Source of the DNA: an uncultured Pelagibacteraceae bacterium
GTDB taxonomy: Bacteria; Pseudomonadota; Alphaproteobacteria; Pelagibacterales; Pelagibacteraceae
Direction: 5' to 3'
Assembly: GCA_902627045.1 (NCBI GenBank)
Contig: CACOHP010000002.1
Span: forward strand, 1 to 52,961
Length of the DNA: 52,961 nucleotides
Program-made: the position numbers and the translations under genes
Shown: positions 5,851 through 24,004 of the stretch, piece by piece
How positions within the stretch are numbered: position 1 is the first letter of the stretch
Layout of the letters: every line of letters begins with the position of its first letter
The notes under the pieces: generated by a model
The model's input: the letters and a program-made list of their open reading frames with translations, nothing else
What the model was told of the DNA's origin: nothing
The model's database searches: none

Positions 5851-5878
5851 CTTGAAAATGTATGTCCAATCTCTATAT
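5851..5878 (+). promoter_or_regulatory. Putative heat-shock (RpoH/sigma-32) promoter of groESL
   Basis: CTTGAA at 5851-5856 and TCTATAT at 5872-5878 are separated by about 16 bases and lie about 30 bases upstream of the groES start. This fits the alphaproteobacterial RpoH pattern (CTTG-AA, then a CYTATnT-like -10). The same CTTGAA element recurs ahead of hsp20 at 23431, the other heat-shock gene in the window. No CIRCE inverted repeat was seen between the promoter and groES, so control by HrcA is not indicated. Confidence 0.65.
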
Positions 5879-21345: not shown

Positions 21346-23421
21346 ATGAAAATACCACAACTAAAAAAAAAACCAGAAAGAAAATCTTGTCACAATGTTG
21401 CATGGGAAGATAATTATAGTTGGATTCATCAAGAAAATATACTCGAGGTTTTAAAAGACGGATCAAAATTACTTCCTGAAGTAAGAAAATATTTAGAAGA
21501 AGAAAATAGTTACACAGATCATATTTTGAAGAATAATAAAGAGATTGAAAAAAAATTATTTCATGAAATTAAAGGTCGAATAAAATTAGATGACGTTTCA
21601 CTTCCATTTAAGGATATTAGATATGAGTATTGGACTAAAACTACAACTAAAGGAAATTATTCTATAAAACTTAGAAAAAAAATTGGTTCCGATGAAATAG
21701 AAGAAATTTGGAACGGAGATAAAGAAAAAGAAAAATTAAAAACAGAGTACTTTGGAATTGGAGATTTAGAAGTAAGTTATAATGATAAATATTTAGGATA
21801 CTCTTTAGATCTAAAAGGCTCTGAATATTATACAATTTATTTAAGAAATATTTCGACTGGAAAAGAAATAACAGAAAAAATAGAGGAAACTAGTGGCAGC
21901 ATAACTTTCAGTTTAGATGATAAATATATATTTTACTCAAAACTTGATGAGTTTCATAGACCTAGAAAAATTTATAGGCATAAAATTGGGACACCTGTAA
22001 AAAGCGATGAATTAATTTTTGAAGAAAAAAGTGAGGCATTCACAGTAAGCATAAGTTTGAGTTCGGATGAAAAATATTTTTTTATTACAACCTCAGATCA
22101 CAATACTTCAGAACAATATTACTTTTTAGTTAATGAAAATAAACCAAAACCAAAGTTAATTAAAAAAAGAAAAAGGGGTATAATTTATTCGATTTCATCT
22201 TGGGATAATTATTTTTATTGTCATACAAACGAGGATGCTGAAGACTTTAAAATAGATAGATGCAATGATTTATCTAATCAAAATTGGGAGACCTATATAG
22301 CTGCTAAAGATGAAGTGCTTTTAGGAGGCTTAGTATTTTTAAATGATTGGATTATTAGAAGTGAAAAATCAAATGCTCTTGGGAAATTATACTTAAGAAA
22401 TATAAAAACAAGTTTAGAAGAGGAGTTAATATTTTCTGAAGAAAAAGTAATTGTTCCTGGTATTTCATTGACACAAAGAGATAGAAATACTGATCTAGTT
22501 TATTTGTCATATTCATCACCGAAGACACCAGGAAAAACCTATCTTTATAATTTAAAGACAAAAGAAAAAAAATTAATCAAAGAACAAGAGATTCCATCAG
22601 GACATAATCCTGATGATTATATTGTTGAAAGAATAGAATGTGCTTCGCACGATGGAAGATTGATACCTATTACAATAACAAGACACAAAAAAACTAAAAT
22701 TGATGGATCAGCAAATTTACTACTATATGGTTATGGATCTTACGGTAATTCAATGTCTCCTGATTTTTCATCAACTAGACTCAGTCTAATTAACAGAGAT
22801 ATCATTTGGGTTACTGCTCATATCAGAGGCGGGATGGAAAGAGGAATGAAATGGTGGAAAGAAGGTAAACTTCTTAATAAAAAAAATACTTTTAAAGATT
22901 TCATTTCTGTTGCAAAAAACTTAATTGAAAGAAATTATACATCAAAAGGTAAAATAATAGGCATGGGTGGTTCAGCAGGAGGCTTATTAATGGGCGCAGT
23001 TGTAAATGAAGCACCCGAATTATTTCTTGGCATAGTGATGGCAGTACCTTTTGTAGACTCATTAACTACAAACTTAGACCACTCACTTCCATTAACAGTT
23101 GGAGAATTTGATGAGTTTGGAAATGCAAAAGATAATAAGGATCATTTTGAATACATATATTCTTATGCTCCATATAATAATATAAAAAAAATGGATTATC
23201 CTCATATTTTAATTACAACAAGCCTAAGTGATAACAGAGTTTTATTTGATGAACCTGCAAAATTTACAGCAAAACTTAGAGATTACAAAACTGATAACAA
23301 TCTTCTTTTGCTTAAGACAGAAATGAATGCGGGTCATGGTGGTAAATCTGGTCGAGATGGTGCTATAGAAGAAATTGCTTTTGATTATGGATTTATTTTA
23401 AAAATTTCAAATAAAATTTAA
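21346..23421 (+). CDS. ptrB: Oligopeptidase B (prolyl oligopeptidase family, S9A)
   Basis: A 691-residue serine peptidase that cleaves short peptides, typically after Arg or Lys. The N-terminal half is the seven-bladed beta-propeller (repeated S-x-D-x-K-Y and Y-S-x-L-D-E patterns). The C-terminal alpha/beta-hydrolase domain has G-G-S-A-G-G with nucleophile Ser543, Asp629 in S-D-N-R-V, and His664 in A-G-H-G-G. The L-L-Y-G-Y-G-S-Y-G oxyanion region and H-I-R-G-G segment are conserved. No signal peptide is seen, so it is probably cytosolic. It converges with nothing and is followed by the hsp20 promoter. Confidence 0.95.
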   Translation: MKIPQLKKKPERKSCHNVAWEDNYSWIHQENILEVLKDGSKLLPEVRKYLEEENSYTDHILKNNKEIEKKLFHEIKGRIKLDDVSLPFKDIRYEYWTKTTTKGNYSIKLRKKIGSDEIEEIWNGDKEKEKLKTEYFGIGDLEVSYNDKYLGYSLDLKGSEYYTIYLRNISTGKEITEKIEETSGSITFSLDDKYIFYSKLDEFHRPRKIYRHKIGTPVKSDELIFEEKSEAFTVSISLSSDEKYFFITTSDHNTSEQYYFLVNENKPKPKLIKKRKRGIIYSISSWDNYFYCHTNEDAEDFKIDRCNDLSNQNWETYIAAKDEVLLGGLVFLNDWIIRSEKSNALGKLYLRNIKTSLEEELIFSEEKVIVPGISLTQRDRNTDLVYLSYSSPKTPGKTYLYNLKTKEKKLIKEQEIPSGHNPDDYIVERIECASHDGRLIPITITRHKKTKIDGSANLLLYGYGSYGNSMSPDFSSTRLSLINRDIIWVTAHIRGGMERGMKWWKEGKLLNKKNTFKDFISVAKNLIERNYTSKGKIIGMGGSAGGLLMGAVVNEAPELFLGIVMAVPFVDSLTTNLDHSLPLTVGEFDEFGNAKDNKDHFEYIYSYAPYNNIKKMDYPHILITTSLSDNRVLFDEPAKFTAKLRDYKTDNNLLLLKTEMNAGHGGKSGRDGAIEEIAFDYGFILKISNKI

Positions 23422-23430
23422 AAAAAACTA

Positions 23431-23458
23431 CTTGAAAAAAAAAATTTAGTTCCCACAT
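23431..23458 (+). promoter_or_regulatory. Putative heat-shock promoter of hsp20
   Basis: CTTGAA at 23431-23436 and CCCACAT at 23452-23458, spaced about 15 bases, resemble an RpoH promoter. The element lies just after the ptrB stop and about 64 bases before the hsp20 start. It shares the CTTGAA -35 with the groES promoter at 5851. It would give a leader of roughly 55-60 bases. Confidence 0.6.
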
Positions 23459-23465
23459 AAGTTTG

Positions 23466-23517
23466 GTAAGTCGCCTTATGGGGCTTGCATAAATAAACTT
23501 GCTTAAAAAAAAGGAGG
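23466..23517 (+). promoter_or_regulatory. ROSE-like RNA thermometer candidate in the hsp20 leader
   Basis: Two hairpins fill the leader. The first pairs 23466-23472 with 23482-23488, with extra C-G pairs inside and a bulged G. The second pairs CTTGCTT (23498-23504) with AAGGAGG (23511-23517) around a six-A loop and so covers the Shine-Dalgarno. It pairs C-G, U-G, U-A, then a G-G mismatch, then C-G, U-A, U-A. ROSE thermometers upstream of alphaproteobacterial small heat-shock genes have just this UUGCU opposite AGGA with a G-G pair. The pairing was worked out by hand. Confidence 0.55.
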
Positions 23518-23521
23518 ATAT

Positions 23522-23968
23522 ATGACAAGTAAGGATCTATCTATATTCAACTCATTAAGACCTTTCTCAATTGGTTTTGACGACATGTTTGACCAATTTG
23601 AAAGTATGTTGGGTAATGGAAATTTGACTATGCAGTCGAATTATCCGCCATACAACATAAGAAAAACTGGGAAAGACAACTACTCAATAGAAGTTGCTCT
23701 TGCCGGTTTTAGTAAAAAAGATGTTGAGGTTGAGTTTGAAGATAATTTGTTAACAGTAAGGACAAAACAAGTTAACAAATCTGATGAAAAAAATGAAGAC
23801 GGTGAAATAATTCATAAAGGCATTTCGCAAAGACAATTTGCTAGATCATTCACTATAGCGGATGATGTCAAAGTAAATGGTGCTGAGTTAAAAGATGGTC
23901 TTTTAACAGTAGCTTGTGAAAGAATTTTACCAGATCATAAGAAAAAAAGACTTATCGAAATTAGATAA
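23522..23968 (+). CDS. ibpA: Small heat-shock protein Hsp20/IbpA family
   Basis: A 148-residue alpha-crystallin-type chaperone that holds unfolding proteins for DnaK/ClpB. The N-terminal arm contains R-P-F-S-I-G-F-D-D-M-F-D-Q-F. The alpha-crystallin domain (about 38-137) includes Y-P-P-Y-N-I-R, Y-S-I-E-V-A-L-A-G-F, and the G-x-L-T-V type end strand (D-G-L-L-T-V-A). An F-A-R-S-F-x-I segment is typical of IbpA-type proteins. Strong GGAGG lies four bases before the ATG but is predicted to be masked by a hairpin. A hairpin terminator follows. Confidence 0.95.
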   Translation: MTSKDLSIFNSLRPFSIGFDDMFDQFESMLGNGNLTMQSNYPPYNIRKTGKDNYSIEVALAGFSKKDVEVEFEDNLLTVRTKQVNKSDEKNEDGEIIHKGISQRQFARSFTIADDVKVNGAELKDGLLTVACERILPDHKKKRLIEIR

Positions 23969-23980
23969 GTAGAGGCCTTG

Positions 23981-24004
23981 CTTGCGGGGAGAGATCCTCG
24001 CAAG
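23981..24004 (+). terminator. Hairpin after hsp20, probable terminator
   Basis: CTTGCGGGGA pairs with TCCTCGCAAG (10 bp, one G-U) around a GAGA loop, the same loop as in the groEL terminator. The following sequence (TAAACTTTAAAAAC) is only partly U-rich. It sits between hsp20 and the convergent lipoprotein gene and may serve both, though no T-tract follows on the minus strand. Confidence 0.65.

Follow-up and report, generated by a model that had tools for sequence, protein, structure and literature searches.

The locus examined here raises the question of whether the leader of a small heat-shock gene in the SAR11 order carries both a heat-shock promoter and an RNA thermometer. The window, that is, the whole stretch of DNA analysed, comprises 52,961 nucleotides from an uncultured Pelagibacteraceae bacterium. 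In this window an ORF assigned by Pfam to the prolyl oligopeptidases ends at 23421, and 100 bases separate it from the start of hsp20 (23522–23968, plus strand, 148 amino acids; Pfam PF00011, E = 1.7e-17, 63.8 bits, cut-off 20.8). The protein encoded there gave the only HSP20 match in the 913-kb assembly, which is about 82% complete. An initial annotation had read this interval as a CTTGAA promoter, an upstream hairpin and a ROSE-like hairpin masking the Shine–Dalgarno (SD) sequence; its coordinates for CTTGAA, CTTGCTT, the six A's and AAGGAGG were all exact, and the ATG stands at 23522. Our analysis indicated that the leader is quite probably a short two-hairpin RNA thermometer of the ROSE type, placed before hsp20 under an RpoH-type heat-shock promoter, with thermosensing deduced from its features. 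A further 10-bp hairpin (CTTGCGGGGA/TCCTCGCAAG, loop GAGA, 23981–24004) was seen just past the hsp20 stop; judged by eye, it is not followed by a T run.

Sigma-32 promoters combine a CTTGAA-type −35 element with a C-rich ATA −10 element. Upstream of hsp20, on the plus strand, we identified a −35-like box, CTTGAA (23431–23436), of the RpoH (sigma-32) type and a −10-like box, CCCACATA (23452–23459), in the layout CTTGAA-N15-CCCACATA; the commonest form of the −10-like box in the family is close to CCCATATA. Transcription of hsp20 would then start near 23465. An NTTGWA box was present in 165 of 168 leaders from relatives (described below), and in 140 of those 165 it lay 28–30 nt upstream of the first hairpin, hairpin I; in leaders of the window's family a CCCATAT-like box comes after it. 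The window's genome also contains an rpoH gene, which scored above the cut-off. A loose promoter pattern, set after the hsp20 box had been seen, produced 90 matches in 451 kb of this genome, 25 of them starting with CTTGAA. Four of the 25 were located at most 70 nt upstream of an ORF of at least 70 amino acids: groES (named by Pfam Cpn10), hsp20, hslV (Pfam Proteasome family, the name HslV being given by eye) and one unnamed ORF. A stricter first pattern found two sites in the 451 kb and missed hsp20; it also had no match upstream of the presumed groEL, lon, hslU and ftsH ORFs. The heat-shock promoter proposed at the outset is supported by its CTTGAA-type −35 and C-rich ATA −10 boxes, the near-fixed spacing between box and hairpin I in most leaders, the presence of RpoH and the occurrence of the same promoter type before groES and hslV, all of which suggest that hsp20 is RpoH dependent. 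The groES promoter (CTTGAA-N16-CTATAT, 5851–5878) is situated 28 nt upstream of its gene, and in the short groES leader no ROSE-like motif was noticed by eye.

Relatives were collected by protein search, which detected HSP20 in 155 of 201 genomes of the same genus (28 of the 29 good ones), and by Pfam, which detected it in 216 of 247 genomes of the order (139 of the 149 good ones). Six genomes from SAR11 genera g4, g6 and g8 (G229, G302, G340, G284, G346 and G206; 92–100% complete) gave no HSP20 match. A start was found in 200 of 201 loci; L094, without a start, was left out. We set aside 30 loci of a sister family, f2, together with L001 (a duplicate of L002) and the truncated L120, and retained 168 leaders of the window's own family, f1. 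All 168 were parsed, none failed, and they represent 149 distinct 70-nt sequences. Close relatives are over-represented in this set because 80 of its rows are the best 80 protein matches, and the named and unnamed collections overlap. From genera g2–g4, 13 of 14 loci were parsed (L237 failed); 10 of these are new, and L228, L229 and L239 repeat loci within the 168. For f2, whose hsp20 is about 40–46% identical to that of f1, 30 leaders were fetched and 29 were intact, L060 being truncated.

Hairpin I (GTAAGTCGCC / TTAT / GGGGCTTGC) occupies 23466–23488 on the plus strand and has a bulged G at 23473. A first MAFFT alignment of the leaders was dropped because the A-rich loop had led to misplacement of the SD, and RNAalifold on that alignment found hairpin I only; pairs were counted by anchored parsing and on a 35-leader subset that aligns cleanly. 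By anchored parsing of f1, all 63 distinct arm pairs retained the bulged G, and 93% of hairpin I cells were paired, compared with 84% after column shuffling; one position was T-G in 37 of the 63. One parsimony reconstruction on a tree built from 149 different hsp20 genes counted 157 changes to the pairs of hairpin I; pairing survived 31 two-sided and 91 one-sided changes and was broken by 34. When the whole structure was considered in the 35 diverse leaders, 96.3% of cells were paired against 87.6% after shuffling (0 of 500 shuffles as high), two-sided cells numbered 42 against 7.2, and the best slid register reached 65.3%. The upstream hairpin of the initial annotation thus covaries strongly around an invariant bulged G. 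Hairpin I also echoes the logic of the SD hairpin, with UYGCC/GGG and a bulged G, and in genus g2 (L227–L234) it reads, by eye, UYGCU...AGGA or AGGG. This SD-like form in g2 raises the possibility that a single module is present twice, in tandem, in the leader.

The second hairpin is made up of the anti-SD CTTGCTT (23498–23504), which contains the ROSE motif UUGCU and is conserved in relatives, an A6 loop (23505–23510), which varies among relatives in length and sequence, and the SD itself, AAGGAGG (23511–23517), as its 3′ side, all on the plus strand. The UUGCU motif, as CTTGCT or GTTGCT, stood ahead of the SD GGAG in every one of the 168 intact f1 leaders that were parsed. Among the 13 parsed g2–g4 loci, L236, L238 and L240 (two g3 genomes and one g4) have CUCGCUU and the remainder have CUUGCU; the U-to-C change in these three, at the Y position of the motif, converts a U-G pair opposite the SD to C-G. 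The unmatched G in the anti-SD motif was invariant among the relatives parsed. The proposed UUGCU–AGGA geometry was borne out by these leaders, but its drawing with a G-G mismatch fits the relatives less well than a bulged G does. Across 50 distinct SD hairpins, the bulged-G register (5′-CUU[G]CUU / AAGGAG) formed a mean of 6.16 of 7 pairs and the 7x7 register with the G-G mismatch a mean of 5.6 of 7; the last SD position was T or A, not G, in 15 of the 50, and the full G-G register was possible in 35. The two drawings may be one structure: at the corresponding G of rhizobial ROSE, PMC9450479 reports a non-canonical G-G pair for one element and a bulge for a second.

No relative with an unpaired SD, the observation that would speak against masking, occurred among the 50 distinct SD hairpins, all of which keep at least five of seven pairs. 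Compensatory changes, which would strengthen the case, were two-sided in hairpin I; in the SD hairpin none was found among the 35 leaders, which a fixed SD would lead one to expect. Its pairs are nearly invariant, so covariation cannot prove this hairpin, and its support comes from conservation: the motif's variable position alternates between U and C, either of which can pair with the G of the SD, and across the 50 hairpins pairing holds up better in the bulged-G register than with the G-G mismatch. A trade-off between the terminal pairs of the SD hairpin was also considered and rejected as not significant (variance test 0.20).

We constructed a covariance model, R1, from 35 leaders that excluded the window's leader and included its genus. 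R1 matched the whole element (23464–23525, plus strand) with 55.4 bits, compared with 18.6 bits for the runner-up site in 451 kb of the same genome, where no further copy was convincing. At E ≤ 0.1 it matched 180 of 247 SAR11 genomes, including 130 of 149 high-quality ones, which indicated that the leader is conserved upstream of hsp20 in SAR11; the matches in G229, G283, G340 and G389 (E 0.007–0.04), counted among the 180, are probably due to chance, because none of the four belongs to the genomes in which Pfam detected HSP20. Across the class, R1 matched 30 of 337 genomes, 26 of them outside the SAR11 order. Nine of these 26 loci precede hsp20 and one precedes dnaK (Pfam); by eye, the other 16 comprise one terminator-like hairpin and 15 that look like chance or other genes. 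The six best matches outside SAR11 (E ≤ 6.4e-5; three from one genus) were all upstream of Pfam-confirmed hsp20. Because hsp20 leaders outside SAR11 match the model, a thermometer-like leader appears to predate the order.

We then compared the leader with the ROSE families of Rfam. At gathering scores, Rfam had no match in the window. At a relaxed threshold, ROSE_3 (RF02523; gathering score 43 bits) had the best bit score of five Rfam matches in a 400-base stretch (17.5 bits, E = 0.32), whereas SCARNA7, an unrelated family, had a lower E-value there (0.042); classical ROSE (RF00435) was not among the matches listed at E ≤ 10 for that stretch. The ROSE_3 alignment (23465–23527, plus strand; below the gathering score) was full length and ran over both hairpins through the ATG. 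Over the whole assembly of 913 kb, too, a cut-off of E ≤ 10 left a single ROSE_3 match, the hsp20 leader (17.5 bits, E = 0.175). Since all 14 control genomes (14/14) have a ROSE_3 match at E ≤ 10 too, it is the position of the match, not its E-value, that counts. At the same threshold ROSE_3 matched 6 of 20 relatives' loci, each at the hsp20 leader and with 28.3 bits at best, and had no match in the other 14. It matched 2 of 12 other loci, one at an hsp20 leader (28.6 bits) and one at a clpB leader (29.4 bits), and none of the remaining 10, nor did it match any of three f2 loci; f2 scores poorly with both R1 and ROSE_3. Over 289 genomes of the class there were two sub-threshold ROSE_3 matches, one of them ahead of clpB. 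None of the leaders scanned reached the gathering score. The covariance search suggested by the initial annotation therefore produced a full-length ROSE_3 match at the leader, but at 17.5 bits this falls below the 43 bits of the family: the architecture, with an unpaired G in each of two hairpins, agrees with ROSE_3 and the score does not reach it.

Together, a 3′ hairpin that sets U(U/C)GCU against the SD, an unmatched G, a small heat-shock protein (sHSP) gene whose leader has an upstream hairpin, the similarity to ROSE_3, and the comparable hsp20 leaders beyond SAR11 support the earlier description of the leader as ROSE-like, from which we infer thermosensing. The SAR11 hsp20 leader is real, widely conserved and of the ROSE type, with a heat-shock promoter; its function is read from anatomy and kinship. 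In the mechanism that we propose, RpoH would drive hsp20 transcription under stress, and the 5′ UTR of about 60 nt would fold into two hairpins, hairpin I and the SD hairpin; in the latter, UUGCU would pair imperfectly with AGGA around the unmatched G. In the cool the SD would be hidden; upon warming the weak hairpin would open and ribosomes would bind. Both the sequestration of the SD in the cell and the response to temperature are what these features lead us to infer.

The anti-SD may have a second partner. Codons 2–4 of hsp20 (23525–23533) are nearly frozen at the DNA level, and they contain AAGTAAG (23527–23533, plus strand), which as AAGUAAG is complementary to the anti-SD CUUGCUU and is predicted to form a 7-bp helix with it. 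Among consensus-residue sequences from 128 gapless genes, codon 2 was ACA in 125 of 126, codon 3 AGT in 126 of 126 and codon 4 AAG in 124 of 125; in the rest of hsp20 the usage of these codons was 43%, 13% and 22%, respectively. The early lysine codons of three neighbouring genes were AAA in 146 of 154 cases, and codon 4 of hsp20 at the same loci was AAG in 80 of 80. One explanation is that the anti-SD alternates between the SD and codons 2–4, the latter serving as an anti-anti-SD or adding a second lock on the start codon. Besides the nearly frozen ACA AGT AAG, used less consistently elsewhere in the gene, and the mostly AAA early lysine codons of the neighbours, this switch would account for a complement of at least 7 bp in 156 of 168 leaders and for the three CUCGCU leaders in which only a 3-bp complement is left and the lysine codon is AAA. 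However, 32 CCUUGCUA leaders have lost the partner of the last base of codon 2 and still have ACA (32 of 32), L235 has CUUGCU yet AAA, and the complement is absent, by eye, from outgroup leaders. Unusual conservation is also found without any partner, at codon 6 (CTA), and a neighbouring gene likewise has invariant early codons (ATA in 41 of 41, CCA in 66 of 66). The folding balance, moreover, varies with segment length. We regard such a switch as unlikely. The fuller proposal, that SAR11 hsp20 mRNA is a two-partner thermometer whose anti-SD is common to the SD and codons 2–4 and which is tuned to ordinary sea temperatures, not a simple heat-shock zipper, strikes us as doubtful.

Folding predictions constitute the main weakness of the thermometer reading. 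The fold energy of the leader was ordinary (z = −0.95; 30 of 200 shuffles as good), and the minimum-free-energy z-score, not being significant, was dropped as proof of structure. The isolated SD hairpin was predicted to be stable, with a median ensemble energy of −5.6 kcal/mol at 20 °C and −3.3 kcal/mol at 37 °C. For SD burial at 20 °C, hsp20 ranked 42nd among 70 ORFs with an SD-like motif, in a comparison where many of the 70 starts may be wrong. Shuffled upstream sequence, in which the bases of hairpin I are freed, tended to bury the SD better than the native sequence, both in the window and across a test set of 40 leaders; in 0 of the 40 did under a tenth of the upstream shuffles bury the SD as well. 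When the leader was trimmed to begin at −58 and at most 12 coding bases were included, the SD hairpin was the predicted minimum. With 18 coding bases it was displaced by the anti-SD:codon helix, with 30 the fold differed between 15 and 37 °C, and with at least 40 other folds won over it; with 80 upstream and 18 coding bases, the SD hairpin was again the predicted fold. Because the predicted fold changes with the coding sequence included, no melting temperature is given here. Nearest-neighbour rules do not model the non-canonical pairs of ROSE.

Hairpin I was present in every leader fold tried across these coding lengths, whereas the SD hairpin depended on context, and covariation, too, favours hairpin I over the SD hairpin. 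Both observations fit a structured, conserved leader that is no thermometer: hairpin I would shield the mRNA or serve as a protein-binding site, and the UUGCU–SD pairing would do no more than set basal translation. A generic leader of this kind would not be expected to keep U(U/C)GCU unchanged together with an unmatched G, to precede an sHSP gene and to be linked to ROSE_3, and we consider this explanation distinctly improbable. That a repressor binds the leader's inverted repeats as a DNA operator, the RNA having no role, is very hard to credit: a survey of SAR11 motifs warns that single-stranded DNA may be the form in which some protein-binding candidates act (PMC6429828), but the arms of hairpin I accept G-U pairs and carry an unpaired G that does not vary, features that fit a role at the RNA level, and the second pairing covers the SD.

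For the ROSE-type thermometer that we favour, the closest functional model, by analogy, is provided by the ibpA leaders of Pseudomonas. In PMC3669281, thermometer activity is shown for these ROSE-like leaders, which are short, have two hairpins and contain U(U/C)GCU; the authors propose a sigma-32 promoter for them. The SAR11 leader resembles them in its 5′ UTR of about 60 nt, two hairpins, U(U/C)GCU facing the SD in the 3′ hairpin, sHSP gene and proposed sigma-32 promoter. It differs in being AT-rich, in having an invariant bulged G in hairpin I, and in that its 5′ end and its function are deduced from sequence. Its alignment with Rfam ROSE_3 spans both hairpins, hairpin I as UGCC/GGG with a bulged G and the SD hairpin ahead of the ATG; unlike members of that family, it scores 17.5 bits and its relatives at most 28.3, below 43. 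Classical rhizobial hspA ROSE, partly described in PMC9450479, likewise has UYGCU opposite the SD, an unmatched G and an sHSP gene, but it has up to four hairpins, compared with two in SAR11. ROSE-G, as described in PMC12857270, places a G opposite the SD's G, which is one possible drawing for SAR11; its motif is CUGCU before ABC transporter genes, whereas SAR11 has UUGCU or UCGCU before hsp20.

The initial annotation had suggested that such an element was not described for SAR11. In the open literature on ROSE elements and RNA thermometers in SAR11 and Pelagibacter, as far as it was accessible, we found no description of this leader; however, a 2019 survey of SAR11 strain HIMB5 refers to 'a possible RNA thermometer' whose gene its main text leaves unnamed (PMC6429828), and this may be the hsp20 leader. 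In a survey of P. ubique intergenic regions, Table 1 covers regions longer than 100 bp, and the terms 'heat shock' and 'hsp' are absent from the main text (PMC2704228).

If the thermometer reading is right, translational control by temperature has outlasted strong genome streamlining in most of the SAR11 genomes examined, and the leader would be a small, direct target for measuring how these cells sense warming. The comparison also links Rfam ROSE_3 to a wider group of alphaproteobacterial hsp20 leaders that score under its threshold.

The leaders of sister family f2 (L032–L061) differ from those of f1 and have further hairpins, yet they carry the same UCGCU–SD module, with AAUCGCUUAAGGAGGAUU (UCGCU) preceding the start in 29 of 29 intact leaders. 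In other alphaproteobacteria, ROSE-like matches also lie before other genes: R1 matched ahead of dnaK in L264 (1501–1555, minus strand), and ROSE_3 matched ahead of clpB in L203 (1501–1570, plus strand).
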